A DNA stretch of 64,000 nt from an uncultured Pelagibacteraceae bacterium. Its GTDB lineage: Bacteria > Pseudomonadota > Alphaproteobacteria > Pelagibacterales > Pelagibacteraceae. Below, piece after piece: positions 27,203 through 53,807 of this stretch (positions are counted from its first letter, which is position 1; the number at the start of each line of letters is the position of its first letter). The DNA is taken from contig CACCYQ010000001.1 of NCBI GenBank assembly GCA_902550285.1, positions 1 through 64,000 of the forward strand, in the 5' to 3' direction. Below the pieces are notes generated by a model, which saw only the letters and a program-made list of their open reading frames with translations, was not told where the DNA came from and searched no databases. The position numbers were made by a program, and so were the translations under genes.

Positions 27203-28561
27203 TTAGCCTTTTACCACTTCTCTTGTATTTGCGTTAAATGACTCTTTAAAAGGTATATCTACTACTACTGCGTCAACTGGTGTACCAGGTGTTTCAGAGT
27301 ATTTAGCTGGCAAATGCACTTTATATTTGGTTCCAACTTTTCCTTTTGGAAAACCATTAGCATTTAAAGTTCCATCAAATGGTACATATCCCATTGCAAT
27401 ATTTTGTTTTTTTTCAGGGTGATACCAAGGAGAAGTTATAAATCCTACTGGATCTCCACCATCAGCATTTGAAATTAACCAAAAATCAGGTGCATACTCT
27501 TCAATCGGTTTTCCACCCAATTCAAGTCCAACTAATTGAAGTTTATAAGGTTTTTTTCCTGCTTTAATTTCAGCACCCATTTTTTCCAGAGCTGCTTTAC
27601 CAACATAATCAGTTTTTTTATTCCATTCACCTTTTCCTGATAATGAAACTTGATAACCAAGATTACACTGAAAAGGATTGTGTTGTTGATCCATGTCTTG
27701 TCCCCATGAAAGAATCCCTGCTTGTATTCTTCTATGGTGAGCAGGAGCAATAACCATTAAATTATGTTTTTTTCCTGCCTCGAGAACGGCATTCCACATA
27801 TCATCAGCATGCAATGTTGCATTTCTTAAATATATTTCATATCCAGCTTCTCCTGAGAAACCAGATTGTGAAATAACACAACTTCTTCCAGCAACTTTAA
27901 CTTCAGCTAAACCATAAAAAGGCATATTATCTAAATCAACTTGGTCGCCTAACAAATCTTTCATTAAAGCTTTTGATTTTGGTCCTTGAATTTGCACAGG
28001 GCAAGCATCTATTTCTTCAACTGTACAATTAAATTTTCCATCATGATTAACACCTTGGAGATACATTCCAATATCGGAGTCTGACAATGAAAACCAAAAT
28101 TCATCCTTTGAAATTCTAAGAAGAATTGGGTCATTTAAAACTCCACCATAAGAATTACATAAAATTACATATCTAGCTCTCATTGGTGATATTTTAGTTG
28201 CATCTCTAGTTATTACATAGTCAGTAAATTTTTCTGCATCCGGTCCTTTGACTCTTATTTGTCTTTCAACAGCAACATTCCACATTGTTACATGATTAAC
28301 TATTGCATCATACTCAACCATTGCACCACCATCTTCTGGTTTTACATATCCTCTTGGATGATAAATTCGATTATAAACTGTTGCTCTCCAACAACCAGCT
28401 TGCATTGATAAATGCCAATAAGGTGATTTTCTTACTCTAGTAGAAATTAGCATTTCAACTTTAGTTGGACCACTTTGTCTTAAATTGTATGGAACTTCTC
28501 TGTCAGACTGATCAACAGAAGTTACATGTTTTAGTTTAGTATAGTCAAATTCATTAGACAT
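27203..28561 (-). CDS. GcvT/DmdA-family tetrahydrofolate-dependent (de)methyltransferase
   Basis: GcvT-fold: MWNVAVERQIRVKGPDAEKFTDYVITRD, GGVLNDPILLRIS, SQSGFSGEAGYEIYL; followed in operon by a MetF-like gene. Confidence 0.8.
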   Translation of the reverse strand: MSNEFDYTKLKHVTSVDQSDREVPYNLRQSGPTKVEMLISTRVRKSPYWHLSMQAGCWRATVYNRIYHPRGYVKPEDGGAMVEYDAIVNHVTMWNVAVERQIRVKGPDAEKFTDYVITRDATKISPMRARYVILCNSYGGVLNDPILLRISKDEFWFSLSDSDIGMYLQGVNHDGKFNCTVEEIDACPVQIQGPKSKALMKDLLGDQVDLDNMPFYGLAEVKVAGRSCVISQSGFSGEAGYEIYLRNATLHADDMWNAVLEAGKKHNLMVIAPAHHRRIQAGILSWGQDMDQQHNPFQCNLGYQVSLSGKGEWNKKTDYVGKAALEKMGAEIKAGKKPYKLQLVGLELGGKPIEEYAPDFWLISNADGGDPVGFITSPWYHPEKKQNIAMGYVPFDGTLNANGFPKGKVGTKYKVHLPAKYSETPGTPVDAVVVDIPFKESFNANTREVVKG

Positions 28562-29282
28562 AACTATTCTCCTTCAACCACTTGTTAGTTTCCTTCAAGC
28601 CGCCGAATGTATAAATGTGGAAGTTTTCTGAATATTTTTTTACTTTCCCAATTAATTCATTAGGGTCTTTAGGTCTCATTAAATCTAATGCCTTACTAAA
28701 ATTAGACTTAAGAAAGTTTAAGGAATTTTTTGCTCCTACAATATTAGCAAATTTAATTAAGCTAGTTATTTTAAGAGGGCCAGTAATTCCAACATGAACT
28801 GGTACTGTTTGTTTAGAAATAAAATCTATGATTGGCTGAGGATCTAATAACCATTGAGTTACTATATAATCAGCGTAAGGCTTTTTATCTTTCATAGCTT
28901 TTTCTAAGTCAGAATCGGATATATCAGGACTCCCCTCGGGATGTCCAGCGATTCCTATCTTCAATTGTTCAAAATAGCCCGTCTCTAAAAGCTGAATTGA
29001 ACTATCAAATTTTCCAACTGGTTCTCTACCACCACCAATAACAAGAACTTGTTTTACACCGCCATCTTTACATCTAGAGACATATTCTTTGAGTTGTTCA
29101 TCATTTTGAATAGATCTAGCAGGAAAATGAGGTATTGGATTAAACCCTTTTTTGGCTAGTTTAGCAGCTTGTTCAGAAGTATCTTTATAATCACCTCCTG
29201 GAAGCATAGTTATGTATACATCCTTTAAGGCTGGTAAGCTGTCTAACTCAGTTTTAGGTCCTATTTCCAAAGAAAAATTCAT
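28554..29282 (-). CDS. Methylenetetrahydrofolate reductase-family protein (short, MetF-like)
   Basis: MNFSLEIGP, TMLPGGDYKDTSEQAAKLAKKGFNPIPHFPARS, YIVTQWLLDPQPIIDF; 8-nt overlap with the GcvT-family gene. Confidence 0.8.
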   Translation of the reverse strand: MNFSLEIGPKTELDSLPALKDVYITMLPGGDYKDTSEQAAKLAKKGFNPIPHFPARSIQNDEQLKEYVSRCKDGGVKQVLVIGGGREPVGKFDSSIQLLETGYFEQLKIGIAGHPEGSPDISDSDLEKAMKDKKPYADYIVTQWLLDPQPIIDFISKQTVPVHVGITGPLKITSLIKFANIVGAKNSLNFLKSNFSKALDLMRPKDPNELIGKVKKYSENFHIYTFGGLKETNKWLKENSYV

Positions 29283-29346: not shown

Positions 29347-30231
29347 CTATCTTTTTATGCCTCTGTGTTTTTGAATTCTTCGACCATATTCTTGAGTAAT
29401 TCTATCAAATATTATTGCTAAAGCTACTATAGCTAAACCATTCATTAAACCTAAAGCTAGATATTGGTTTGATATCGCTCTTAAAATTGGAACACCTAGT
29501 CCTTTTACTCCTATCATTGAAGCAATAACAACCATTGCTAAAGCCATCATAATTGTTTGATTAACCCCTGCAAAAACAGTTGGTAGAGCCAAAGGTATTT
29601 GTACAGTTCTTAACTTTTGTATTTTAGTTGCCCCAAAAGCTTCACTGGCTTCTATTGTTTCTTTATCAACTTCTCTTATCCCTAAATTTGTTAATCTTAT
29701 AACCGGAGGTATTGCATAAATACAAACAGCAATTAAACCAGGAATTTTTCCTATACCAAGTAACATTAAAATTGGAATTAAATAGACGAAACTAGGAATA
29801 GTTTGCATCATATCTAAAACGGGAAGCATAGCTTTTTCAACTCTGTTTGACCTTGCCATAAGTATTCCGACAGGGATTCCAACTGCTATACACATAATTG
29901 TGCATACTGTTATTATGGCTACTGTTGCCATGCAATCTTTCCACATGCCAAAATATCCAATTAACATAAAAGCTACCACACTCCCGACGACAAGTTTCCA
30001 ACTTCTTGAACCTAACCATGCCAATATACCAAGTACCAACATTATTATTGGCCAAGGTGTTGCTAGTAATAATTTTTCTAATCTAATTAAAAAAAATAAT
30101 AATGGATCAAAAAAAGCCTCTATACCGTCGCCATATGCTCTAGAAAATTCTCTAAATGTATGATCAATCCCTTTTCTTAATTCCATTAGGGAGGTACGTT
30201 CCATTACTGGAAATTTAGTTAAAAATTCCAT
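29347..30231 (-). CDS. Glycine betaine/proline-type ABC transporter permease
   Basis: ProW/OpuAB-like; EASEAFGATKIQKLRTVQIPLALPTVFAGVNQTIMMALAM. Confidence 0.9.
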   Translation of the reverse strand: MEFLTKFPVMERTSLMELRKGIDHTFREFSRAYGDGIEAFFDPLLFFLIRLEKLLLATPWPIIMLVLGILAWLGSRSWKLVVGSVVAFMLIGYFGMWKDCMATVAIITVCTIMCIAVGIPVGILMARSNRVEKAMLPVLDMMQTIPSFVYLIPILMLLGIGKIPGLIAVCIYAIPPVIRLTNLGIREVDKETIEASEAFGATKIQKLRTVQIPLALPTVFAGVNQTIMMALAMVVIASMIGVKGLGVPILRAISNQYLALGLMNGLAIVALAIIFDRITQEYGRRIQKHRGIKR

Positions 30232-30292: not shown

Positions 30293-31312
30293 TTAAAGAC
30301 CAGCTTTGATTTTTTTAGCAGCTGCTGAAGAAACCCATTTACTCCAAACGGCTTCATGCTGTTTTAAAAATTCAATTGCTGCATCTGAACCTTTAGCTTG
30401 GTTGTCTGCCATATATACAAGCATTCCATTCATTACTTCACCTGGGTAAGTACGTTTTTCAACATAACTTAAAGCTTCTTTTCCGCCAGTTTTAGCAAAG
30501 TTTGCTGTAACAATAGAATTAACTTCAGACTTTGTCCATGATGTTGGTTTAGGATTAGCACAATCTTGTTCAGCTAAAGTTATACAGTTATCCCAGTTAT
30601 CTCTTCCACCAAATGGAACTCCAAAATCAACTGAAATTAAACCATATTTTCCAACCATTGATGTCGGATTCCAGTAGTAACCAAACCAAGGATTTCCAGA
30701 ATCAGCTGCTTTAGATATTGTACCATCTAAACCTGCTGCAGAACCTGGATCTATTAATACCCATCCTTTTTTTTCCATTTCGAAAGCTCTGAAAAGGTTT
30801 GCATTAGCTAATTGACATCCCCATCCAGCTGGGCAACCAACAAAAGCTCCTTTAGAAGGATCTTCTTTTGATGGAAACCACTCAGGATGTTCTAGGATTT
30901 CCATTGCAGTCATACCTTTTATCTCAGGAATTTTTTTAAGAGTTCCTGGAGTTATCCACCAGCCTTCACCAAGACCAGTAATAGGTGCTCCATTTGCAAT
31001 GATTAATCTTTTCTCTGAAACAGCTTTCTTTAAAGGTGTGTAAACAGCATTAGCCCATTGTTCTGGATTCATATCTGGTTCACCTTTTTCGTCCATTGAA
31101 GTAAAAGTAGGCATAGTAGCACCTGGTATTAACTCTACTTCACAACCATATCCTTTTTCTAAAATTATTTTATCTACATTGGCCATTAATTCAGCCGATG
31201 CCCAGTTTTGTTCAGCAATAACTAATTTTCCACATCCTGCGTTAGCTACACTTGAAAAAGCACCGAATAAAAATACTGACAACATAGTAAAAAGTATTTT
31301 TCTTATTTTCAT
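30293..31312 (-). CDS. Glycine betaine/proline-type ABC transporter substrate-binding protein
   Basis: Signal peptide (MLSVFLFGAFSSVANA); OpuAC-like KLVIAEQNWASAELMANVDKIILEKGYGCEVELIPG. Confidence 0.9.
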   Translation of the reverse strand: MKIRKILFTMLSVFLFGAFSSVANAGCGKLVIAEQNWASAELMANVDKIILEKGYGCEVELIPGATMPTFTSMDEKGEPDMNPEQWANAVYTPLKKAVSEKRLIIANGAPITGLGEGWWITPGTLKKIPEIKGMTAMEILEHPEWFPSKEDPSKGAFVGCPAGWGCQLANANLFRAFEMEKKGWVLIDPGSAAGLDGTISKAADSGNPWFGYYWNPTSMVGKYGLISVDFGVPFGGRDNWDNCITLAEQDCANPKPTSWTKSEVNSIVTANFAKTGGKEALSYVEKRTYPGEVMNGMLVYMADNQAKGSDAAIEFLKQHEAVWSKWVSSAAAKKIKAGL

Positions 31313-31394: not shown

Positions 31395-33800
31395 TTATGA
31401 TCTCATTTTAATACCTTTTGGGTCATACAAAGGCTGTTTTATTATTGAACAATCATAAAAATCACCATTAATTTCAACTTGAAACTTTTCGTTAGATTTA
31501 CAAATTGTCTCATCTAGATACGAGTAGGCAATACTTTTCTTTACATAGTGAGCATATCCTCCTGATGTTATGTAACCAATGCTTTTTCCATCTTTCATAA
31601 CTGCTTCATTGTTAGTTACATCAATGTCTTTAGTTTCAACAATTAAAGGAGTAAGTTTTAAATTGCTTTTGTCATTTTCTGCACTTTTTTTACCAATAAA
31701 ATCTTTTTTCCAATCAATAAAAATATCTAAACCGGACTCTTTAGCAGTAAAGTCTGGTCTAAAATCTAATGTCCAAGCACCCCAACTTTTTTCTAGTCTC
31801 ATCGACATTAAAGCTCTTCCACCGAATGGTTTTAAATTGAATTCTTTTCCTGCATTTTCTATTTCCTCATAAAGCTTCAATTGAAAATGAGGAGCAACAT
31901 AAATTTCGTATCCCAGCTCTCCAGTAAATGAAATTCTATTTACTATTGCAGGTACACCTGCAACAAACATTCTTTTTGTATCTCTAAATTTAAAATTATC
32001 ATTAGAAACATCTTCTCTAACTAATTTTTGAAGCAAATCTCTTGATTTAGGGCCGGCAATTGAAATTCCATGAAAATCATCCGATTTATTTATATATTTA
32101 ACATTAAATTTACTTATATGGCTTTCAAACCATCTTCTATGCATTTCTTGTGCAGCACCAGAACCAAAAATCATAAATTCATTTTCATCAAGACATGCAA
32201 CAGTTAAATCTCCGTATAATTTTCCTCTGTAAGTAAGCATTGGACTTAAGGAAATCCTTCCCTGCTTTGGTAGTTTTCCAGCTAAAATATGATCTAAAAA
32301 TTTTCTGGCTTCTGGACCTTTAAATTCGTGTTTTGAAAAGTTTGCTACCTCAATAGCTCCTACATTTTCTCTTACATTTTGAACTTCTTTTGAGACATAA
32401 TCATGAGATCTTGATCTTTTAATTGTTGGCTCTTCATGAGCATCCTCTTTATTATTTGCAAACCACAAGACATTTTCTAGTCCAAAACTATCGCCCATAA
32501 CTGCTCCTTTTGATACGAAACGATCATAAAGAGCTGTAGTTTTTTGTTTTCTACCTTTTGGTAAAGTTTCATTAGGAAAGGTCATAATAAATCTTCTTTC
32601 ATAATTTTCTGAAGATTTAATTGTTCCATATTCAGGAGATGCATAATCTCCAAATCTTGCAATATCCATTGCCCAAACATCAATTGATGGTTCTCCGTCG
32701 ATTATCCATTCAGCAATACATTTTCCAACACCACCACCTTGACAGAACCCTGCCATAACACCAACTGCAACCCAATAGTTCTTCATACCAGGCACGGGTC
32801 CAATTAGAGGACTACCATCTGGACCAAATGTAAAAGGGCCGTTTACAATGTTTTTAATACCTGCTTTTTCTAAAGCTGGCATTCTTTCAAAACCAATTGC
32901 TAGCCTGTCTTGTATATTATCTAGCTTTGGTTCTAAAAGTTCATGGCCAAAATTCATTGGTGTACCATTTACTTTCCATGGAGTAGATTTTGGTTCATAA
33001 GTTCCAAGCAACATTCCTTTGCCTTCTTGTCTAAAATATATATTTCCTTCAAAGTCTGTTCCTATTGGTAATCGTTGATCACCCATTGCTTCTATTTCTG
33101 GAATAGCTTCTGTAATTAAATAATGATGCTCCATTGGTTGAACAGGTAAATTCAATCCCGCTAATTTACCGACTTCTCTTGCCCACAAACCTCCAGCATT
33201 AATAACTATTTCTGCATTAATATTTCCTTTGTCAGTAATTACTTCCCAAGTTCCATCATTTTTTTGTTTAGTATCTTTAACAGTTGTATGAGTATAATAT
33301 TTTCCTCCGTGCACTTTTGCAGCTTTGGCAAAAGCATAGGTTACTCCAGATGGGTCAACTTCACCATCAATTGGATCCCATAATGCTAAAAGATATCTTT
33401 TAGGATCGATCAATGGATTTTTCTTTTTAACTTCTTCTAGAGAAATAAATTCTTGATCAAGACCCATGTATCTTGCTTTTGATCTTTCTCTTTTTAAATA
33501 GTCAGCCCAAACTTCATTAGAAGCTAAATAAAAACCTCCACTTGGTTTAAATCCAATTGCGTGTCCAGACTCTTTTTCAATTTCTTTATAAAGGCCAATA
33601 GTATAAGCCATCATTCTTGAAATGTTTGGATCAGAAGAAATTACGTGAACATTTCCTGCGGCATGCCAAGAAGAGCCAGAAGTTAATTCGTTTCTCTCTA
33701 AAAGAATACAATCTTTTAAACCGAATTTAGATAGATGATAAAGTATAGAACAACCAACTACACCACCACCTATTACAACTACTTTGGCATGTTTTTCCAT
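31395..33800 (-). CDS. Dimethylglycine dehydrogenase-like FAD + GcvT-domain oxidoreductase
   Basis: VVVIGGGVVGCSILYHLSKFG; LTSGSSWHAAGNVH (likely flavinylation His region); C-terminal GcvT domain; adjacent to BHMT. Confidence 0.88.
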   Translation of the reverse strand: MEKHAKVVVIGGGVVGCSILYHLSKFGLKDCILLERNELTSGSSWHAAGNVHVISSDPNISRMMAYTIGLYKEIEKESGHAIGFKPSGGFYLASNEVWADYLKRERSKARYMGLDQEFISLEEVKKKNPLIDPKRYLLALWDPIDGEVDPSGVTYAFAKAAKVHGGKYYTHTTVKDTKQKNDGTWEVITDKGNINAEIVINAGGLWAREVGKLAGLNLPVQPMEHHYLITEAIPEIEAMGDQRLPIGTDFEGNIYFRQEGKGMLLGTYEPKSTPWKVNGTPMNFGHELLEPKLDNIQDRLAIGFERMPALEKAGIKNIVNGPFTFGPDGSPLIGPVPGMKNYWVAVGVMAGFCQGGGVGKCIAEWIIDGEPSIDVWAMDIARFGDYASPEYGTIKSSENYERRFIMTFPNETLPKGRKQKTTALYDRFVSKGAVMGDSFGLENVLWFANNKEDAHEEPTIKRSRSHDYVSKEVQNVRENVGAIEVANFSKHEFKGPEARKFLDHILAGKLPKQGRISLSPMLTYRGKLYGDLTVACLDENEFMIFGSGAAQEMHRRWFESHISKFNVKYINKSDDFHGISIAGPKSRDLLQKLVREDVSNDNFKFRDTKRMFVAGVPAIVNRISFTGELGYEIYVAPHFQLKLYEEIENAGKEFNLKPFGGRALMSMRLEKSWGAWTLDFRPDFTAKESGLDIFIDWKKDFIGKKSAENDKSNLKLTPLIVETKDIDVTNNEAVMKDGKSIGYITSGGYAHYVKKSIAYSYLDETICKSNEKFQVEINGDFYDCSIIKQPLYDPKGIKMRS

Positions 33801-33809
33801 TACAGAATA

Positions 33810-34856
33810 TTATAAAGTTTTTGCTGCGTCTGTGTTGTGTTTTTTTAAACTTGAATCAGTTCCATGTGCATAGTGCTTAGACATATCCGGGTAGTACTTA
33901 TATGAAATAGGTTTTCTGCCCAACGCAACTGCCATTTCTCTAACATGGTGAGGTTCTGCTCCACAACATATTCCTATAAAATTAATTTTTTTTTCTGCAC
34001 ATTCTTTTGCAAATTCTGCCATTTCAAATCTATTACAATACAAATTGTCTAATGCAACAGGGAAGGCATTTCCACCAGGTATGCAGTCACAACCATCATC
34101 AATCTGATTTAAAAAACCAGGATTTTTTTCTGTAGTTCTATAAGGAACAGGTAGTGCAGCAACATGACAAGAAACTGCTTTTCTTATTTCTGGTAAAAGT
34201 TTCATTGTCATTTTTGGACCCCTGAAGCAATTTAAACCAACAACATCAGCTCCGTTATCTTCTAGTATTTTGCACGCTTCTCCAGGTGAAGTTCCTTCTC
34301 TTGTTTTACCATCTCTTCTAAAAGCATAATTACAAACGGCTATTAAACCTGCATCTTTAATAACTTTAAGTGCAATTTTTAATTCTTCTACCCAAGTTAT
34401 TGTTTCAGCAATAACAAAATCAACTCCTGCTTCTTTTGCCCAACCAACTTGTTCTTCAAACATTTTTTGACACTCAATATTGCTTTTTTTATCGTTTGGA
34501 TCATATAAATTTGTATTAGCTACATTTCCTGCTACCAACAGATCAAGATCTTTAAATTCATCTCTTGCATCTTTGGCAATTTTTAAAGCATTTTTTTGTA
34601 GTGGTTCAAGAAGATTTTCTTTTCCAATTATTCTAAGTTTTTCTCTATGTCCGTAATAAGTAAATGCTTGAACAACTTCACTTCCCGATCTTATAAATTC
34701 TCTGTGCAATTGTGAAACTACTTCTGGATGCTCTAAAACTACTTCAGGTACAAAAGCCCCAGCTTGTAAATAACCTCTTCTTTCCATTGCAAAAAGATAA
34801 CCTTCTGCACAAAGGACAGGTCCGTTATTAAGCCTTTCAATTAAATTTTTTCCCAT
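33810..34856 (-). CDS. bhmT: Betaine--homocysteine S-methyltransferase
   Basis: Zn ligands in GLNCFRGP and GICCGAEPHHVREMA; EVVQAFTYYGHREKL. Confidence 0.9.
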   Translation of the reverse strand: MGKNLIERLNNGPVLCAEGYLFAMERRGYLQAGAFVPEVVLEHPEVVSQLHREFIRSGSEVVQAFTYYGHREKLRIIGKENLLEPLQKNALKIAKDARDEFKDLDLLVAGNVANTNLYDPNDKKSNIECQKMFEEQVGWAKEAGVDFVIAETITWVEELKIALKVIKDAGLIAVCNYAFRRDGKTREGTSPGEACKILEDNGADVVGLNCFRGPKMTMKLLPEIRKAVSCHVAALPVPYRTTEKNPGFLNQIDDGCDCIPGGNAFPVALDNLYCNRFEMAEFAKECAEKKINFIGICCGAEPHHVREMAVALGRKPISYKYYPDMSKHYAHGTDSSLKKHNTDAAKTL

Positions 34857-34945: not shown

Positions 34946-35575
34946 ATGGCACAAAAAGACGTAGGAAATAAAATACCAATATACAAATTAAAAAAAACCG
35001 ATGAGGTAATGAAATATTACGATGAATGGGGAGAAGGTAATAAATATGACAAAGATATGGTTGACTGGAATTATACAGGACCAAAGGAAACATCGGAGGT
35101 ATTGGTTAAACATCAGAAAAATAAGGATGCTAAAATTTATGATGCTGGTTGTGGCACTGGATTAGTAGGTGTTGAACTTAAGAAGTATGGTTTTTCAAAT
35201 TTTTATGGCGCAGATCTTTCACAAAAACTTTTAGATCTAGTTCCAAAAGATCTTTATCAAAAGTTAGATAAAGTTGATTTAAATAAAACAATACAAGAGA
35301 AAGATAACTATTTTGATGTTGTTATGTGTGTAGGCACTTTTACTTTTGGACATGTAAAACCTCCAGCTTTAGATGAATTTATAAGGATTACAAAAAACAA
35401 AGGATTAATTTGTTTTACAATAAATGAAGGTATTCATGAAGAATATGGTTTTGATAAAAAAATAGACCAACTCAAAAAAGATAATAAATGGAAAGAAATA
35501 GAATTTTTTAAATCAAATTATATAGCAAGCAAAGATGTAAATGCTTGGCTTGGCCTTTACGAGGTTATCAAGTAG
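34946..35575 (+). CDS. Class I SAM-dependent methyltransferase
   Basis: Motif I IYDAGCGTGLVGVELKKYG, DVVMCVGTFTFGHV. Confidence 0.85.
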   Translation: MAQKDVGNKIPIYKLKKTDEVMKYYDEWGEGNKYDKDMVDWNYTGPKETSEVLVKHQKNKDAKIYDAGCGTGLVGVELKKYGFSNFYGADLSQKLLDLVPKDLYQKLDKVDLNKTIQEKDNYFDVVMCVGTFTFGHVKPPALDEFIRITKNKGLICFTINEGIHEEYGFDKKIDQLKKDNKWKEIEFFKSNYIASKDVNAWLGLYEVIK

Positions 35576-36750
35576 TGTCAGAAGTATATAACATCATAGA
35601 AAAGAAAAAGTTAGATGTTGTAAGCAATCCAATAGAAAAATCACATGGTCTTCCAAATGAATGTTATACAAGTGAAAAATATACTCAACTAGAAAGAAAA
35701 AAACTATTTGAAGATAAATGGGTTGTTATAGGTGTAGCAAGCTCATTACCAAATAAAGGCGATGCAAAACCTTTTGATCTATTAGGTATTCCAATAATAA
35801 TTTTAAGAGATAAAAAAAATAAAATACGAGTTTTTCACAATGTTTGTAGTCATAGAGGATACAAAATTTTACAAAAAAGCTGCAAAATTAAAAATCTTAT
35901 AAGATGCCCATATCATTCTTGGTCCTATGATACGAGTGGCAAACTAATTGCAACTCCACATTTAGGAGGAATGAATAAACATGAATGTAAAAAATTTGAT
36001 AAATCTAAAAGTAATTTGAAAGAAATTAGATCAAGTGTTTGGTTGGATATGATATTTATAAACATTAGTGAAAATGAAATTTCATTTGAAAAATACATCA
36101 AACCCTTAAGTGATAGATGGGAACAGTTTTGGCCTAAAAAGGATAGAAAACTAATGGTTTATTCAAATGATTTTGGATATTTTAATTTAAATGCAAAATG
36201 TAATTGGAAATTTGCAATAGAAAATTATTGTGAAAGTTATCATTTGCCATGGGTGCATCCTGGTTTAAATTCTTATTCGAAAATTAGTGATCACTATCAT
36301 ATTCAAGGATTACCCAATCGTTTTGCAGGACAAGGTACTAAAGTTTATAATCCAAAACTTAAGGGAAAAGAAAAATTTCCTTGTTTTCCAAACTGGCCTA
36401 AAGATAAAGAACATATTGCAGAGTATGTAGCTTTATTTCCTAATGTTATGTTAGGTATTCATAAGGATCATTTTTATGCATACTGGCTTGAGCCAGTGGA
36501 TCATAAATTTACTAAAGAACATATGGAGATTTATTATGTGGGAGAAAAAGCCGCTAATTCACAAAAATATAAATCTTTAAGAAAACAGAATCACAAACTT
36601 TGGAAAAGTGTTCAAATTGAAGATGTTGGCATAATTGAAGGTATGCAAGAAGGAAGAAATTCACCATCTTATAATGGTGGAAATTTTTCACCAGTTATGG
36701 ATAATCCAACTCATCACTTTCACAAATGGGTTGCTACAAATATAGTTTAA
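35575..36750 (+). CDS. Rieske-type aromatic-ring-hydroxylating/choline-monooxygenase-like oxygenase, alpha subunit
   Basis: Rieske CSHRG...CPYHSW; mononuclear Fe site ENYCESYHLPWVH. Likely GTG start in TAGTG overlapping the methyltransferase stop (ORF extends to 35545). Confidence 0.88.
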   Translation: MSEVYNIIEKKKLDVVSNPIEKSHGLPNECYTSEKYTQLERKKLFEDKWVVIGVASSLPNKGDAKPFDLLGIPIIILRDKKNKIRVFHNVCSHRGYKILQKSCKIKNLIRCPYHSWSYDTSGKLIATPHLGGMNKHECKKFDKSKSNLKEIRSSVWLDMIFINISENEISFEKYIKPLSDRWEQFWPKKDRKLMVYSNDFGYFNLNAKCNWKFAIENYCESYHLPWVHPGLNSYSKISDHYHIQGLPNRFAGQGTKVYNPKLKGKEKFPCFPNWPKDKEHIAEYVALFPNVMLGIHKDHFYAYWLEPVDHKFTKEHMEIYYVGEKAANSQKYKSLRKQNHKLWKSVQIEDVGIIEGMQEGRNSPSYNGGNFSPVMDNPTHHFHKWVATNIV

Positions 36751-36751
36751 C

Positions 36752-37990
36752 ATGAAATTTAAAAGAAAGATTAATCCTGATTTAAAACCTAAAACAAATT
36801 TCATTACCAAAAAAAGATTAAGAGAAGATGAAATTAATTTTGATAAACTTAGATCTTACAGACTAGATAGAGTTAAAAAAGAATTAGAAAAAAATAATTT
36901 AGAGGCCTGTATATTATTTGATCCAGTTAACATCAGGTATGCATTAGATACCGTAAACATGAGCGTTTATAATATGCATAATCTTACACGATACTGCTTT
37001 ATCCCGGTGAGCGGACCAGCAATACTTTATGAGTATTTTAATTGTGAAATACTATCCAAGCATTTAAATTTAATTGATGAAATAAGACCAGCAATAACAT
37101 GGGATTATTTTAGCAATGGTGATCAAGCAAGTTCACAATTAAAGAAATGGATTAATGAAGTTAAGGAATTATCAAATTCTTATTTTAAAAGTAAAAAAAT
37201 AGCAATCGATGTTATTAATGGCCCTGCAGTAACTGCATTAAATCAAGAAAACATTAAAGTTGTTGATGCTAAATTAATTTTAGAACAAGCAAGAGTCATT
37301 AAATCTCCTGAGGAATTAAAATGTATGAAGGCAGCAATAGATGTTGCTGAAATTGGTGTAACTAAAATGCGTAATGAATTAAAAGCTGGTATGACCGAAG
37401 ATGAACTTTGGTCAATTTTACACAAAACTAATATCGAACATGGTGGAGAATGGATTGAGTGTAGAATTTTATCTTCTGGTGAAAGAACAAACCCATGGAT
37501 GCAAGAAAGCAGCAATAAAGTAATTCAAAAAGGTGAAATAGTATCTTTTGATACGGATATGGTTGGTCCTTACGGATATTGTGCGGATATATCGAGAGCA
37601 TTTGTAGAAGGACATAAATTTAATGACGATCAAAAAAAATTATATCAAATGGCTGTTGAGCAAATTAATCATAATTATAGATTAATAAAATCTGGAACAT
37701 CTTTTAAAGAATTTACTGAAAAATCTTGGAAACTTCCTGAAGAATATTATGGCAATAGATATTCGTGCATGCTCCATGGAATTGGCCTTTGTGATGAATG
37801 GCCACAAATAAAATATCCAACTGATGGTGGACAAAGAGAAGGTCATTTTGAAAAAAATATGACCATCACACTTGAGAGTTATATCGGCAAAGTTGGAGGT
37901 AAAGAAGGGATTAAGCTTGAACAACAGTACTTAGTAAGCGAGAATAACCTTGAACTTATGTCCCATCATCCTTTAGAAGATATCAAATGA
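36752..37990 (+). CDS. M24-fold protein resembling DMSP lyase DddP
   Basis: Creatinase/M24 fold; ILSSGERTNPWMQES, FDTDMVGPYGYCADIS, YSCMLHGIGLCDEWP, LESYIGKVGGKEGIKLE align with the DddP metal/catalytic residue spacing I recall. Confidence 0.75.
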   Translation: MKFKRKINPDLKPKTNFITKKRLREDEINFDKLRSYRLDRVKKELEKNNLEACILFDPVNIRYALDTVNMSVYNMHNLTRYCFIPVSGPAILYEYFNCEILSKHLNLIDEIRPAITWDYFSNGDQASSQLKKWINEVKELSNSYFKSKKIAIDVINGPAVTALNQENIKVVDAKLILEQARVIKSPEELKCMKAAIDVAEIGVTKMRNELKAGMTEDELWSILHKTNIEHGGEWIECRILSSGERTNPWMQESSNKVIQKGEIVSFDTDMVGPYGYCADISRAFVEGHKFNDDQKKLYQMAVEQINHNYRLIKSGTSFKEFTEKSWKLPEEYYGNRYSCMLHGIGLCDEWPQIKYPTDGGQREGHFEKNMTITLESYIGKVGGKEGIKLEQQYLVSENNLELMSHHPLEDIK

Positions 37991-38403
37991 AAATAATTTT
38001 AGTTATGGGATTACCTGGTGCAGGCAAAACGACTTTAGCAAATGAGTTAGCTAAATTAATAAAAGCAAAAAGATTAAACGCAGATGAGGTTAGAAAAGCT
38101 GCTAATGATTGGGACTTTTCTGAAGAAGGCAGAACAAGACAATCTAAAAGAATGTCAGATGCAGCAATAAAAATGAAAAGTGAAGGCAATAATGTAATAG
38201 CCGATTTTATATGTCCAACACCTGAAGCAAGAAAATTATTTCCAGCAGACTATGTTGTTTGGGTAGATACTATCCAAAAAGGTAGATTTGAAGATACCAA
38301 TCAAATGTTCGTAAAACCTGAAAAATATGACTTTCATGTTACTTCCCAAGACGCTCAAAATTGGGCACAAAAAATATTTGAAGAAATAAAAAAAATTTTA
38401 TAA
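37987..38403 (+). CDS. P-loop kinase, adenylylsulfate-kinase-like/AAA_33
   Basis: Walker A GLPGAGKTTLA; ATGA overlap with the M24 gene; ADFICPTPEARKLF. Confidence 0.8.
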   Translation: MKIILVMGLPGAGKTTLANELAKLIKAKRLNADEVRKAANDWDFSEEGRTRQSKRMSDAAIKMKSEGNNVIADFICPTPEARKLFPADYVVWVDTIQKGRFEDTNQMFVKPEKYDFHVTSQDAQNWAQKIFEEIKKIL

Positions 38404-38415
38404 CTAATATTTTTT

Positions 38416-40191
38416 ATGAGTATTTTAGTAAAAATTATTTTAGTTTTATTTTTTTCAATAATTTTTTCCAATAAATTATATGCTGCAAATGTTGCTGCAG
38501 ATACAACTTATTCAAGCAGTGTATCAGGAACTCAATATAATATTACTGCTGATGATGTAGATATCATTGTGACTAACGATATTACTCTTGATCGTAACCA
38601 AAAACTTTTTAATAATACTGATGCTGAAAGATCAGGTGCTACAATTACAATTCACTCTGGATCAACTATAACAACAACAAACTCTAATACGATATTCACT
38701 GGCGGTGGAGAATTCACGATAACAAACTCAGGTACAATTTCAACAAGTAACTCTAAATCAATCAATATAAGTAACTCTGATGGAGCATCAATTACAAATA
38801 ATAGTGGAGGTGTAATTTCATCTGCTGGAAATACTATTCTTGGAGATGCAGGTGATGGTGCAGATAATACAACAATTGATAATAGTGGAGAAATCTTTTC
38901 AACTAAAGCTACATCAGAATCTAGTGCAATTATTGTTGATGAAGATGATACTGGTACAACAATTACAAATAATGCTGGTGGATCAATTTATAGTAAGGGA
39001 AATAAGTCAACTATTGTTTTAGGAGCAAGCTCAACTCTTACAAACAGTGGTTCAATAAAAAATAATAAATCTGTTGATACAAATGTAATCCAATTAAAAG
39101 GAAATAATAATACTGTAACTTTAAAAGACGGTGGAGTTGTTGTTGGTATGATTAAATCTGCTACTGGTGCAACAGGAAATAAATTAAGAATAAACCATGG
39201 TGTTGGAATGAGTTATTATTATGATACATCTGGCACTTTCACTTTAGAAGATTTAGATGGCAACCAAGTTGTAAAAGGATCGGCAGGATCTGTTGGTCAA
39301 GGTAGTAGTGAAACTCTTGACGAATTATTAGGTACTAAATCAATAAATATTAGACAATCACTTACCAAATTTAAAAATGAAGAAGAAGATTTGGACGAGG
39401 GTAAAGGCTGGGGTGAAATAAATTTTTCTACTTTTAAAAGAAAACAAAACGATCAAGACCTATCATTAGGTTTTAATTATACTGGTTTAACTATAAATTT
39501 AATAAATCCGTACAAAGGAAAAGATTTTATTTTATCTTTGGGAACTGGAAATCAACAATTTACAAAAAAACATAATATCCATCGATATTCTTTACACTCT
39601 GGTTTTTATTTTAGAGATCAACCATTTTTAAATAAATTTTTAGATGAAAGCTTTATCTTAGGTGGAGTTAATTTACATAATAGCGTAAGAGAAATTTTAA
39701 CTAACACAACTACGTCAGGCAAACTTAATACGACAAGTATGTTTGAATCTTATGATTTGCTAGCGGGAACAAAAATAAATAATAATTTTTTAATACCTAA
39801 CTTTGGAACAACATTTGGTTTATCAATTACCCCTGGATATAGTGAAAATAAATTTTATCATTGGAATACAAAGACAGCCAGTAATATATCTGTTTTCCTT
39901 GATGATGATTATAAGTTTAATTTAGCAGAAAATTATCAACTTAATCTTGGATGGATTTTAGATCTTAGACATATGATTTTAGGTAAAGATCAAGATTATG
40001 AAATTAATGGAACTAGTGCTAGTTATTCTCAAGATGAAAACTTAATTAAAGAATTAACTTTAGCAACAAATTTAGGTTTTGAAAAAAAAATAGCAAACGA
40101 ACATTTTTTTAAATTTTATTTAGACAGCACAATCAGTACCCAGGAATTAATGAGCTTTTCAGGAAATTTTACTTATAAATTTGCCTTTTAA
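38416..40191 (+). CDS. Autotransporter-like outer-membrane protein, Ser/Thr/Asn-rich beta-helical passenger and C-terminal barrel
   Basis: Signal peptide; imperfect repeats (TITNSGTISTSNS, ITNNSGGVISS, TIDNSGEIFSTKA, ITNNAGGSIYSKG, LTNSGSIKNNKS); C-terminal strands ending FTYKFAF. Confidence 0.75.
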   Translation: MSILVKIILVLFFSIIFSNKLYAANVAADTTYSSSVSGTQYNITADDVDIIVTNDITLDRNQKLFNNTDAERSGATITIHSGSTITTTNSNTIFTGGGEFTITNSGTISTSNSKSINISNSDGASITNNSGGVISSAGNTILGDAGDGADNTTIDNSGEIFSTKATSESSAIIVDEDDTGTTITNNAGGSIYSKGNKSTIVLGASSTLTNSGSIKNNKSVDTNVIQLKGNNNTVTLKDGGVVVGMIKSATGATGNKLRINHGVGMSYYYDTSGTFTLEDLDGNQVVKGSAGSVGQGSSETLDELLGTKSINIRQSLTKFKNEEEDLDEGKGWGEINFSTFKRKQNDQDLSLGFNYTGLTINLINPYKGKDFILSLGTGNQQFTKKHNIHRYSLHSGFYFRDQPFLNKFLDESFILGGVNLHNSVREILTNTTTSGKLNTTSMFESYDLLAGTKINNNFLIPNFGTTFGLSITPGYSENKFYHWNTKTASNISVFLDDDYKFNLAENYQLNLGWILDLRHMILGKDQDYEINGTSASYSQDENLIKELTLATNLGFEKKIANEHFFKFYLDSTISTQELMSFSGNFTYKFAF

Positions 40192-40254
40192 ATTTATCAA
40201 TAATTTTGAATACTTTTAATTGAATTAAAACTAAATTCCTTTAAAAAGCAAAAA

Positions 40255-42513
40255 ATGTTTTTAATAAGAAAAATACTCATCTTATTTTTTTTTCTACTTT
40301 CAATTCCTAATTCATTTGGAGCTCCAGTAACTCTTGTCCATACAACGCAGTTTAATGATGGTCCTAGTCCAGGTGGTATCGAATTTAACAAAGATGGAAC
40401 AAAAATGTTTATAGTTCATTATACAAAAGATACAGGTGATGATTATGAGGCAATTTATGAATATGATTTATCTACACCTTTTGATTCTTCTGAAAGTTCA
40501 AGAACTTACACCGGAGACAGCGAAAGATGTGTTTTAGGAGATGGCACCAATGGTATAGATACCAATAACAATGCTGTTCTTTATGATTTGGAATTCAGTA
40601 GTGATGGAATGAAATTATTTACTAGCAGTAGAATAAATGGCGATGGTACGAATGAGGACATACTTTACAGATTTGATTTAACTTCTCCTTATGATGTTTC
40701 AACTTGTTCTTATGTAATGGAAACTACAGATCTTGAAACTGACGCTAATATCAATGGAAGTAAAGCTGGAACTTTTGATTTAGAGGCAACTCCTGATAAA
40801 AGTAATGATCACAGACTACAAGCTTTAGAAATTAATGATGACGGTACTAAATTATTTTTAGCTTGGATGGATTTGGTCTCTACCAATACTAGATTATTAG
40901 AGTATAATTTAACAACTCCATATGACATAACAACACTCCAACTTGTAACGAATGCCGGAATTTTAATAGGTTCGGGTACCACAACTGATGTAATTAATCC
41001 TGCTGGAATGAGATTTAGTGCAAATGGAAAAAGAATTTTTGTTGTTAGTCACCAAAATGGTAGCCAAGGTGTTAGTCAGATTTCTCTTACAAATGCTTAT
41101 GATACGTCTTCATTTGTTTTAGATGGTAAATATAGTTTAAAAGGTTCAAACAACCAACCAAGAGGTATTGGATTTAGCGCAAATGGTTTAAAAATGTACG
41201 TAGGAAGTGATACAAGCGGAGGTTATGGCACAACTAGAATTTACGAATATGATTTAGTTTGTCCTTTCAATATTATTCAAGGAAAATGTCCTCCTATATC
41301 AGAAAATAGTAACGAGACAGGTGTTGCTGAAGCACAAATAGAACTTGCAAGAAAAACAATTGAATATTCTACAAAGACAGCTTTAAATCGACTGAAATGG
41401 ATTAGAAGAAACAAAGATAAACAAAATTTAACAAACCAAAATATAAAATTTAATTTTTCAAATCAAATGCTTGCCTCTCTTACTGAAGCATTGAAAGTTT
41501 CTACTTTAAAAAATAAAGAAAATAAAAATCAAGATGTATTTTATTGGAGCGAAGGTAGTATTTCAATGGGAAGAGTAGGAGATACTAATATTTCATTATC
41601 AAAAGAAATTAAGACTAACTCAATTACGATTGGGGCAGATAAATTTATTGATGATAACGCAATACAAGGAGTTGCATTTAGATATGGCAAAGATGAAGCG
41701 GATGTTGGTTCAGAAGGTAGTAATGTAGATATGGATGCTTATAATGTCATGCTTTATTACTCTGTTCCTAAAACAGAAACTAAATATTTAGACACTATAA
41801 TTGGAGTAGGAAGACTTAGAACAGATATTACAACAGCATACGATGGTAAAAAATCAGCAGGTGATAGGTTTGGAACACAATTATATGGAACAGTAAAAAT
41901 TAAAGATGAGATAAAAAAAGATAATCTTACATTGATTCCATCTGGTCAAATTGATCTTGGCTATACTTTATTAAACTCCTATATAGAATCTGGGCCTAGC
42001 GCAAAAAATTTTGATAAACAAGGCATACAATCAAAGAACGTAAAATTAGCTATTGCCGCCGTTGATAAATTATTAACTGAAAAATATACTTTGAAAAGAC
42101 ATGGAAAGCTTGAATACAAAGCTGACTTGCACCGGTCATCAAGTTTAAAATATTCTTATGTTTCAGACGGAACTAAAATTGACACGAAATTACAAACTGG
42201 TGCATTACATAATATTAATGGAGAGATTGGTTTTGATTTAATTTTTTCAGATAATTATAGTGTTTTCGTTATCTATGAGAGAAGTCATGCATTTGGTTCA
42301 GGATATACTGATCAAATACATATCGCTTTAGGCTACCTTCCCTACAAAGATACAGAATATGCATTTTTATTAACTGGTTCAGAAAACCTCATGTCTCAAT
42401 TTAAAATTAACAAAAATATTAATGGTTATGACATTAGCTTTAATTTAAATGACGATTTATCTAATTTAGGAAACAACCGAGAAGCAAGTATAAATTTAAA
42501 TAAAGTCTTTTAA
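40255..42513 (+). CDS. Autotransporter-like protein with beta-propeller-type passenger and C-terminal barrel
   Basis: Signal peptide; five repeats of GIEFNKDGTKMFIVH type (also DLEFSSDGMKLFTSS, ALEINDDGTKLFLAW, GMRFSANGKRIFVVS, GIGFSANGLKMYVGS); C-terminal strands ending in F. Confidence 0.75.
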   Translation: MFLIRKILILFFFLLSIPNSFGAPVTLVHTTQFNDGPSPGGIEFNKDGTKMFIVHYTKDTGDDYEAIYEYDLSTPFDSSESSRTYTGDSERCVLGDGTNGIDTNNNAVLYDLEFSSDGMKLFTSSRINGDGTNEDILYRFDLTSPYDVSTCSYVMETTDLETDANINGSKAGTFDLEATPDKSNDHRLQALEINDDGTKLFLAWMDLVSTNTRLLEYNLTTPYDITTLQLVTNAGILIGSGTTTDVINPAGMRFSANGKRIFVVSHQNGSQGVSQISLTNAYDTSSFVLDGKYSLKGSNNQPRGIGFSANGLKMYVGSDTSGGYGTTRIYEYDLVCPFNIIQGKCPPISENSNETGVAEAQIELARKTIEYSTKTALNRLKWIRRNKDKQNLTNQNIKFNFSNQMLASLTEALKVSTLKNKENKNQDVFYWSEGSISMGRVGDTNISLSKEIKTNSITIGADKFIDDNAIQGVAFRYGKDEADVGSEGSNVDMDAYNVMLYYSVPKTETKYLDTIIGVGRLRTDITTAYDGKKSAGDRFGTQLYGTVKIKDEIKKDNLTLIPSGQIDLGYTLLNSYIESGPSAKNFDKQGIQSKNVKLAIAAVDKLLTEKYTLKRHGKLEYKADLHRSSSLKYSYVSDGTKIDTKLQTGALHNINGEIGFDLIFSDNYSVFVIYERSHAFGSGYTDQIHIALGYLPYKDTEYAFLLTGSENLMSQFKINKNINGYDISFNLNDDLSNLGNNREASINLNKVF

Positions 42514-42554: not shown

Positions 42555-42929
42555 ATGAGCTATCAATGGGACAACAAAAAACCAACTGCACAAATGCTAG
42601 GCAGATGGCAACCATTTCACGATGGTCATTATGCTTTATTTGAAGAAATTATAAAAAAAACTGGCCAAGTTTGTATTCAAATAAGAGATGTACAAGGTGT
42701 AGATGATAACCCTTTTGATTTTGAAACAGTAAAGAAAAAAATAGAAGAAAAGTTAAATCCTAAATACGAAGGTAGATTTAAAATTATGTTAGTGCCCAAT
42801 ATAACAAACATTTGTTATGGCAGAGGGGTTGGTTATAAAATAGAAGAAATAGTTATGCCTGAAGAAATACAAAAAATTTCTGCAACTAAAATTAGAGCTA
42901 AAATGCGAGAGGATGGAGATTTAAAGTGA
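42555..42929 (+). CDS. Adenylyl/cytidylyltransferase-family protein
   Basis: GRWQPFHDGHYALFEE (HxGH-like) and ISATKIRAKM motif. Confidence 0.8.
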   Translation: MSYQWDNKKPTAQMLGRWQPFHDGHYALFEEIIKKTGQVCIQIRDVQGVDDNPFDFETVKKKIEEKLNPKYEGRFKIMLVPNITNICYGRGVGYKIEEIVMPEEIQKISATKIRAKMREDGDLK

Positions 42930-43777
42930 ACGAAAGACTTAAGTCGATAGTAGATTTAGAAAAATATCCAATCTATGACTTAAATTCTCCAATAATTAAA
43001 AATTTAATCAAAAGATGCAAAGAAGAACTAGACCAATTTAGTTGTTCCACTATACCTAATTTCATTTTACCAAAATCATTAGAGATAATGAATTCAGAAT
43101 TAGAAAAACAGTTAGATGAGGTTTATATGTCTAAAGAAAGTATAAACGCTTATTTGTATGCTGAAGATGATCCAAAATTACCTAAGGATCATCCAAAAAG
43201 AACTTTTATGAATAGATACAACGGATATTTAAATTCTGATTGTTTTCCTAAAAATTCTGAAATGAAATATCTTTATGAAACAGATGAACTTTTAAAATTT
43301 GTATCTGCATGCTTAGGAGTTTCTCCAATATATAGATGGGCTGATCCTTTAGCTTGTCATGCTTATAATGTTATGGAGCCTGAAGGAATACTTCCTTGGC
43401 ATTTTGATAGTTGTGAATTTACATTAAGCTTAATGATTCAAAAACCAGAGAAAGGTGGAATATTTGAATACTGCCCAAATATAAGAGAACCTGGTAATGA
43501 AAATTTTGACGAAGTTAAAAAAGTTTTAAATGGTGATAGAGCACGAGTTAAACAATTAAAATTAGAACCAGGTGATCTGCAAATATTTAAAGGAAGATTT
43601 ACTTTACATAGAGTTACAAAAATAGAAGGGCAAAAATCAAGATACATGTGTATACCAGCTTATGTTTTAGATCCCTGGAGAGTAAACACTCCAGAACATT
43701 CAAAAGCAATTTATGGTAAAGTGTTACCAATTCATTTAGAGAGAAATGTTGCTAGATCAGATGGCCTAGCAGATTGA
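42926..43777 (+). CDS. Fe(II)/2-oxoglutarate-dependent oxygenase-like protein (HalD/ArpA-like)
   Basis: LPWHFDSCEFTLSLMIQ (HxD), LQIFKGRFTLHRVT (distal His), SRY; ATGA overlap with upstream gene. Confidence 0.7.
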   Translation: MNERLKSIVDLEKYPIYDLNSPIIKNLIKRCKEELDQFSCSTIPNFILPKSLEIMNSELEKQLDEVYMSKESINAYLYAEDDPKLPKDHPKRTFMNRYNGYLNSDCFPKNSEMKYLYETDELLKFVSACLGVSPIYRWADPLACHAYNVMEPEGILPWHFDSCEFTLSLMIQKPEKGGIFEYCPNIREPGNENFDEVKKVLNGDRARVKQLKLEPGDLQIFKGRFTLHRVTKIEGQKSRYMCIPAYVLDPWRVNTPEHSKAIYGKVLPIHLERNVARSDGLAD

Positions 43778-43791
43778 TATGAGAATTAATT

Positions 43792-43989
43792 ATGATAAAA
43801 AAATCTAAAGAGCATTTAGATTTAGTAAACGAGACTTATATTAAACATTTTAAAGTTGCATTTAGTGTTAGTAGCTTAATGATTATAGGAGGCTTCCAAG
43901 CAATAATTCACGCAATATGTCCCGCAATATTTCAGACTTCTGCAAGTGACAAGATAAAAAAATTACACGAAAAAATTTCTAAAAGATGA
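43792..43989 (+). CDS. Small DUF6356-like membrane protein
   Basis: 65 aa, one TM; HFKVAFSVSSLMIIGGFQAIIHAICPAIFQTSAS. Confidence 0.65.
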   Translation: MIKKSKEHLDLVNETYIKHFKVAFSVSSLMIIGGFQAIIHAICPAIFQTSASDKIKKLHEKISKR

Positions 43990-44933
43990 AAAGCAATATT
44001 AAAAATGTTGCTGTTGTTGGCACAGGGGTAATTGGAACTGGATGGATAATTAGATTTTTAGCTCATAATAAAAAAGTTGTAGCTTTTGACAAAGATCTTA
44101 AATTGAAAAAGAGAATAATTGCAGAGATAAAACGTACTTGGCCTTATGTAAAAAAATTATTCAATAAAAAAAAATTAAATCTAAAAAATTTTATTTATGT
44201 TACTTCTGTTGAAGAAGCTTTAAAGGAAGCAGATTTTATTCAAGAATGTGCATCTGAAAACTACAAAATCAAAACAAAACTGATGAACGTAATTGGTAAT
44301 TATGCAAAACCAAATGCTATAATTTCATCAAGTTCATCTGGGTTACTTCCAACAAGAATATATTCAAAATGTAAAAATCCAGCTCGTACCATGATAGCAC
44401 ATCCATTTAATCCAGTTTATATGTGCCCTGGCGTTGAAATTGTTCCAGGTAAAAAAACAAAAAGAAAGTTTTTGAATGAAGCTAATAAATTTTACAAATC
44501 TATCTCGATGAATCCAATCATGGTAAAAAAAGAATTACCAGGTTATCTATCAGATAGACTCCAAGAAGCCTTATGGAGAGAAGCATTACATATAGTAAAC
44601 GAAGGATATGCTACTACAAAAGATTTAGATAGAGCAATTGAAGATGGTCCTGGCCTAAGATGGTCATTAATGGGAACTTTCCTAACATTTCATTTAGCAG
44701 GTGGTAAGGCTGGTATGAAACATATGTTAGAACAATTTGGGCCTGCGTTAAAATTACCTTGGACAAAACTGAAAGCTCCAAAACTTTCAAAAAAACTTTC
44801 TTCAAGAGTTATTATTGGCACTAGAAACCAAGCAAAAGGCAAATCAGTAGAACAATTATCAAAAATTAGAGATGAATATTTAGTTAAACTTCAGAAGTTA
44901 AGAAAAAAATATGAAGACAAGATAAGAAAATGA
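43986..44933 (+). CDS. 3-hydroxyacyl-CoA dehydrogenase-family protein, L-carnitine dehydrogenase-like
   Basis: VAVVGTGVIGTGW; SSSSGLLPT, AHPFNPVYMCPGVEIVPG, RLQEALWREALHIV, GLRWSLMGTFLTFHLAGGKAGMKHMLEQFGPALKLPWTK. Confidence 0.78.
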   Translation: MKSNIKNVAVVGTGVIGTGWIIRFLAHNKKVVAFDKDLKLKKRIIAEIKRTWPYVKKLFNKKKLNLKNFIYVTSVEEALKEADFIQECASENYKIKTKLMNVIGNYAKPNAIISSSSSGLLPTRIYSKCKNPARTMIAHPFNPVYMCPGVEIVPGKKTKRKFLNEANKFYKSISMNPIMVKKELPGYLSDRLQEALWREALHIVNEGYATTKDLDRAIEDGPGLRWSLMGTFLTFHLAGGKAGMKHMLEQFGPALKLPWTKLKAPKLSKKLSSRVIIGTRNQAKGKSVEQLSKIRDEYLVKLQKLRKKYEDKIRK

Positions 44934-53011: not shown

Positions 53012-53021
53012 GGAGCAAAAT

Positions 53022-53807
53022 ATGAAAACATTTAATTATCATTCAGCTAAAGACGTAAAAGAAGCTTCAAAAATATCATCTTCTAGCTCAGCTTTTTTAG
53101 CAGGAGGAATGACAACTATTCCGTCTATTAAATTAGGATTAGCAAGTTATAGAGATATTATAGATATAAAAGGAATAAAAAGTTTGTCAGGAATTAAAGT
53201 TAGCGGCAAGTCTGTAAAAATTGGATCAACGACAAAACATGTTGAAGTAGCAAATTCAAAAGAAGTAAAAAAAGCAATACCATCTTTAGCTGCTTTAGCC
53301 GAAGGAATTGGAGACCCGCAAGTAAGAAACAGAGGTACAATTGGAGGATCAGTTGCTAACAATGATCCATCTGCTGATTATCCATCAGCTTGTATAGCTT
53401 TAAATGCTGTTATCCACACAAATAGTAGAAAAATAGAAGCTGAAAAATTTTTTAAAGGTATGTTTGAAACTGCATTAAAGAGTGGAGAAATTATTGAAGC
53501 GATAGAATTTTCAATTCCAGAAAAATCGAATTATCAAAAATATCCGAACCCAGCATCAAGGTATGCTGTTGTTGGAGTTTACGTGGCTAAACATAAAAGT
53601 GAAGTTAATGTTGCAGTTACGGGAGCAAAATCATGTGTTTATAATGATAAAGATTTGGCAAAAGCATTATCAAATAATTTTTCATCTTCAGCAGTAGATG
53701 CAGTTAGAATTTCCTCATCAGGAATGAACTCAGATATACATGCATCAGCAGAATACAGAGCAAACATGGTAAAAGTTTTTGCAAAAAAAGCTGTTGAAGC
53801 TTGCTAA
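53022..53807 (+). CDS. coxM: Molybdenum hydroxylase FAD subunit (CoxM-type)
   Basis: FLAGGMTTIPSIKL, RNRGTIGGSVANNDPSADYPSA. Confidence 0.93.
   Translation: MKTFNYHSAKDVKEASKISSSSSAFLAGGMTTIPSIKLGLASYRDIIDIKGIKSLSGIKVSGKSVKIGSTTKHVEVANSKEVKKAIPSLAALAEGIGDPQVRNRGTIGGSVANNDPSADYPSACIALNAVIHTNSRKIEAEKFFKGMFETALKSGEIIEAIEFSIPEKSNYQKYPNPASRYAVVGVYVAKHKSEVNVAVTGAKSCVYNDKDLAKALSNNFSSSAVDAVRISSSGMNSDIHASAEYRANMVKVFAKKAVEAC

Follow-up and report, generated by a model that had tools for sequence, protein, structure and literature searches.

A SAR11-specific branch of the DddP superfamily, with DddP-like catalytic residues, in a predicted osmolyte-catabolism island

The M24-family protein encoded at positions 36752 to 37990 of the window (the whole stretch of 64,000 nucleotides of Pelagibacteraceae DNA that was analyzed) represents a genuine and conserved branch of the DddP superfamily in SAR11, with DddP-like catalytic anatomy. 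By score and phylogeny, the SAR11 clade to which it belongs is best placed as a separate deep branch outside DddP. We put at about one in two the chance that this protein is a non-peptidase, lyase-type metalloenzyme whose substrate is less likely to be DMSP than a quaternary-ammonium osmolyte (one like carnitine, gamma-butyrobetaine, or betaine, or a compound derived from such an osmolyte by hydroxylation or demethylation). DddP releases DMS, a climate-active gas, and SAR11 is among the most abundant marine groups. Homologues of DddP, those of Pelagibacterales among them, are tallied as DMS producers in surveys (PMC8520302, which used an HMM cut-off of 1e-30; PMC13280387). If the SAR11 clade does not cleave DMSP, such homologue counts may overstate the DMS potential of SAR11; if it does, a lyase is added to a major group. 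A search of a limited collection of papers found none testing the SAR11 M24 clade or linking M24 proteins to Rieske betaine operons.

The open reading frame (plus strand, ATG start, 412 amino acids) had been predicted to retain the catalytic and metal residue spacing of DddP, and this was borne out. Its best solved relative is RlDddP (4rzy; E = 8e-82, ∼36% identity, full-length over residues 29 to 409), RdDddP (4b28) matches at E = 3e-78, and all eight sites align with 4rzy free of gaps. The six metal ligands of DddP (D295, D297, D307, H371, E406, and E421) and the counterparts of Y366 and D377 are all present. They correspond to D267, D269, and D279 (37550 to 37588, plus strand, as for all residues given here), to Y337, H342, and D348 for Y366, H371, and D377 (37760 to 37795), and to E375 and E390 (37874 to 37921). 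Because these matches are full-length and the Pfam M24 match reaches 113 bits, the eight-residue agreement is not due to chance. The residues that are invariant in the wider superfamily (R84, K207, E211, E244, and NPW, with the metal ligands) are likewise all present. The dN/dS ratio of 0.03 to 0.07 against eight SAR11 orthologues means that strong purifying selection acts on the gene and keeps it. A structure predicted by AlphaFold from 42 closely related SAR11 proteins had a mean pLDDT of 65.9 with a poor active-site loop, and details of the fold are inferred. In the PDB chains 4s00 and 4s01 of RlDddP, position 366 is Ala and position 377 is Asn, which means that these two residues were mutated by the depositors.

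The loss of the peptidase histidines bears on what the protein can be. In alignment with the M24 peptidase 2zsg, one histidine is replaced by M250 (37499 to 37501) and the other by D348. DddP itself has Asp and Phe in place of two M24 histidines, a change reported to abolish peptidase activity (PMC5395565); the window protein has the Asp, whereas the Phe position (F278 of RlDddP) is occupied by Met. With both histidines gone, the protein is no ordinary aminopeptidase. It is thus highly improbable that it acts as an Xaa-Pro aminopeptidase or prolidase, as pipelines annotate its relatives, even though it matches Pfam M24 and relatives on plasmids go by the name "Xaa-Pro peptidase family protein"; its match to DddP is 278 bits, compared to 72 bits for the best peptidase. 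A hydrolase that cuts a C-N or amide bond of an osmolyte, as creatinase and ectoine hydrolase do, would feed the betaine demethylases; this reading seems quite unlikely. M24 enzymes normally hydrolyze C-N bonds (PMC5395565), the window protein has weak matches to ectoine hydrolase models, and in Parasedimentitalea a relative has sarcosine oxidase and MttB as neighbors. However, the window protein has Met and Asp in place of the two histidines that M24 hydrolases use, and it is a change of this kind that was reported to abolish the peptidase activity of DddP (PMC5395565).

The original prediction also took the Asp six residues after the His as a mark of a DMSP lyase. This residue does set the window protein apart from M24 peptidases, which have His at that position in 2zsg, but it is not lyase-specific. 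In a superfamily alignment of 88 sequences, every row has the six ligands and Y366 (88/88), and D377 is kept in 81 of the 88, with Gly in seven deep rows. The set includes soil proteins of Rhizobium, Paraburkholderia, and Caballeronia that come from Rieske operons and are annotated as Xaa-Pro peptidases. Therefore, the eight residues are superfamily-wide and are necessary for DddP but not diagnostic, and it does not follow from them that the protein is DddP.

Identity with DddP was accordingly only partly upheld. DddP is the nearest structurally characterized family, with the catalytic and metal residues kept and both peptidase histidines lost, but several differences set the SAR11 protein apart from the DddP clade. 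First, it scores 348 bits on the NCBIfam DddP model NF043017, below the cut-off of 600 bits. Second, in a maximum-likelihood tree the SAR11 clade groups at 100/100 with its nearest relatives from outside the clade, the small-genome Alphaproteobacteria of family f32 (L223 and L224; ∼1.4 Mb), and falls outside a 65-row group (99/89) that consists of DddP and the Rieske-linked soil proteins. The tree was computed without the divergent functional fungal FgDddP; M24 peptidases from the same genome failed as a root, with branches near 10, and the tree is read without root-dependent claims. Forcing the SAR11 and f32 proteins into one clade with the DddP core was rejected (p-AU = 3.8e-5). The protein does not fall among the prolidases or creatinases either, so that the phylogenetic check on its DddP identity gave a split answer. 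Third, every DddP core and Rieske-linked row has Trp at position 95 (RlDddP numbering), whereas the SAR11 and f32 proteins have Tyr or Phe there (Y73 in the window protein, 36968 to 36970). We take Trp95 of RlDddP to be the Trp that contacts the sulfur of DMSP, which would mean that the sulfur-binding Trp is absent in the whole SAR11 clade. In DddP, this sulfur is held by a Trp and a Tyr (PMC5395565). About 40 further positions that are conserved in the DddP core also differ in the SAR11 clade. Finally, the gene partners differ from those of DddP.

The 80 best relatives (85 to 99% identity) all come from Pelagibacteraceae or Candidatus Pelagibacter. Of 297 Pelagibacterales genomes sampled, 65 have a member of the M24 clade, all of them in the same family as the window. 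Another family, f2, contributes 15 genomes with a different M24 relative (37% identity), which scores 787 bits on NF043017 and is placed inside the Roseobacter branch of DddP in the maximum-likelihood tree. The distribution of cupin DMSP lyases (PF16867) showed no clear exclusion with that of the M24 gene.

The gene lies in a variable island of osmolyte genes. A class I SAM methyltransferase (34946 to 35575), the alpha subunit of a Rieske oxygenase (35545 to 36750, with an uncertain TTG start) that ends just ahead of the M24 frame, the M24 gene, and a P-loop kinase-like gene (37987 to 38403) that overlaps the M24 stop codon form a tight run on the plus strand with overlaps or gaps of a few bases. 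The nearest solved structure to the Rieske protein is carnitine monooxygenase CntA, and its best NCBIfam match, below the cut-off, is glycine betaine monooxygenase GbcA. On the minus strand are a gene for a betaine-homocysteine methyltransferase-like protein (BHMT; 33810 to 34856), one for dimethylglycine dehydrogenase (DMGDH; 31395 to 33800; 5l46, E = 5e-181), and the OpuAC substrate-binding protein (30293 to 31312) and ProW-like permease (29347 to 30231) of one ABC transporter. The best structure for the OpuAC protein is RnDmpX 7yle, which was solved with DMSP bound (PMC10030565), and 7 of the 8 pocket residues are kept, with Ala153 changed to Gly. Farther along the plus strand are an Fe/2OG oxygenase (42926 to 43777) and an L-carnitine dehydrogenase-like protein (43986 to 44933; 348.6 bits, cut-off 414). 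The oxygenase is HalD-like, but a halogenase reading was rejected, as its HxD motif (WHFD) is intact and of the hydroxylase type.

Comparison of loci marks the MetF-like gene (28554 to 29282, minus strand) as the left border of this island. Five M24-negative genomes keep the MetF, Rieske, P-loop, 42555, and ECH genes without the M24 insert, the P-loop gene being part of the core locus; the island is thus variable but occupies a fixed site. Most M24-negative genomes also lack the genes for BHMT, DMGDH, the transporter, and the 2OG oxygenase. Between the P-loop gene and 42555, two large open reading frames (38416 to 42513; 591 and 752 amino acids, the second with an autotransporter beta-domain) are absent or divergent in most relatives, which makes this a hypervariable spot.

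Co-occurrence with oxygenases is strong among the Pelagibacterales genomes. The Fe/2OG oxygenase is found in 62 of 65 M24-positive genomes compared to 9 of 232 others, and the Rieske gene in 64/65 compared to 61/232; these genomes share ancestry, so that Fisher p-values on such counts are overstated and indicative only. The association does not depend on linkage. In 15 M24-positive genomes, the Fe/2OG oxygenase is on another contig or more than 100 kb from the M24 gene, and in 7 of the 8 such loci inspected it lies beside a carnitine dehydrogenase. In one annotated locus, the remote cluster also has BKACE, gamma-butyrobetaine dioxygenase, and an OpuAC transporter. A glycine betaine/carnitine genomic island has been published for Arctic SAR11 (PMC12421898), and the part of its description considered here gives the same gene types (BBOX, CDH, BKACE, GDPD, and ABC transporter) as the remote cluster. 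That part does not mention an M24 gene, unlike the island in the window.

These gene partners point to the breakdown of nitrogen-containing osmolytes (carnitine, glycine betaine) at least as strongly as to that of DMSP. A quaternary-ammonium substrate is preferred because the Rieske neighbor is nearest to CntA and the other neighbors are DMGDH, a BHMT-like protein, and a DmpX-like transporter; because the 2OG oxygenase accompanies the M24 gene even without linkage and then usually lies with carnitine dehydrogenase; and because of what surrounds the relatives, a Rieske oxygenase and reductase in Rhizobium and Burkholderiales and BHMT, DHDPS-type, and aldehyde dehydrogenase genes in f32. The clade shared with f32, the rejected grouping with the DddP core, and the change of Trp95 to Tyr or Phe argue in the same direction.

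DddP works by an ion-shift beta-elimination (PMC5395565). By analogy, a small zwitterionic carboxylate would be bound on the binuclear metal center of the M24 protein, Asp348 would take the alpha proton, and the beta substituent would leave, breaking the bond beta to the carboxylate. A quaternary-ammonium analogue would then give a tertiary amine and an enoate, whereas DMSP would give DMS and acrylate. The enzyme would act within an osmolyte-catabolism island together with a betaine/DMSP-type ABC transporter, BHMT, DMGDH, a carnitine/betaine-type Rieske oxygenase, and an Fe/2OG hydroxylase.

The SAR11 protein may nevertheless release DMS. That it is a true DMSP (or DMSOP) lyase, though a divergent one, supplied with DMSP by the DmpX-like transporter and cleaving it with Asp348, is a serious though doubtful alternative. 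DddP provides the closest solved structures, and all eight residues are conserved. DMSP could be the substrate given the match of the transporter pocket to that of DMSP-specific DmpX and the true DddP of f2 in a similar BHMT-DMGDH-transporter context. Cation-pi binding by Trp can also be provided by Tyr. Furthermore, a fungal DddP only 32% identical to RdDddP confers DMS production (PMC4108388), and hence the ∼36% identity seen here does not exclude activity. Against this stand the position outside the DddP clade, the score of 348 against 600 bits, and the replacement of the Trp presumed to face the sulfonium. The tight coupling to Fe/2OG and Rieske oxygenases, which DMSP cleavage does not need, also weighs against it, and no f2 genome that carries true DddP was among those listed for the Rieske gene or for the 2OG gene.

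The f2 operon itself runs, in three loci, BKACE, L-carnitine dehydrogenase, gamma-butyrobetaine dioxygenase, true DddP, BHMT, and DMGDH, with a betaine transporter and acetoacetate-CoA ligase adjoining. A true DddP inside a gamma-butyrobetaine/carnitine/glycine-betaine operon raises the question of the physiological role of DddP.

Similar partners recur in the wider superfamily. The Rhizobium, Paraburkholderia, and Caballeronia proteins are 41 to 45% identical to the window protein, have the same eight residues, and share its Rieske partner; unlike it, they retain Trp95, their operons include a GbcB-like reductase, and they belong to another clade. An independent association is that of MttB and DMGDH beside an M24 relative, and a 2OG-like gene adjoins the relative in Pseudomonas MPC6. 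Betaine genes were found near 11 of 31 M24 loci compared to 5 of 40 control windows from the same genomes (p = 0.02), a modest association. The f32 proteins are 53 to 56% identical to the window protein, have Phe at the Trp95 position, and, like it, have BHMT neighbors, joined in L223 by a methyltransferase. They differ from it in their DHDPS-type and aldehyde dehydrogenase neighbors, which suggest hydroxyproline-type substrates. An FAD oxidase is also present there, L223 has two BHMT genes in addition to the DHDPS-type and aldehyde dehydrogenase genes, and the neighborhood resembles hydroxyproline (betaine) catabolism. A broader and rather speculative proposal, which we think is probably not correct as a whole, is that DddP forms a single branch within a larger M24 lyase superfamily, mostly uncharacterized, whose ancestral role was quaternary-ammonium osmolyte breakdown. 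The SAR11 clade would then be a new betaine/carnitine-pathway enzyme coupled to an Fe/2OG hydroxylase, and such an origin would account for the poor Km that DddP shows for DMSP.

Two other parts of the window are of related interest. Beside the MetF-like gene is a GcvT-family protein (27203 to 28561) that is conserved across SAR11 and has weak similarity to DmdA (231 bits, cut-off 410); the real DmdA of the same genome is on contig C17 (577 bits). Molybdenum hydroxylase subunits at 50636 to 53807 resemble glyceraldehyde or CO dehydrogenase, with scores below the family cut-offs.
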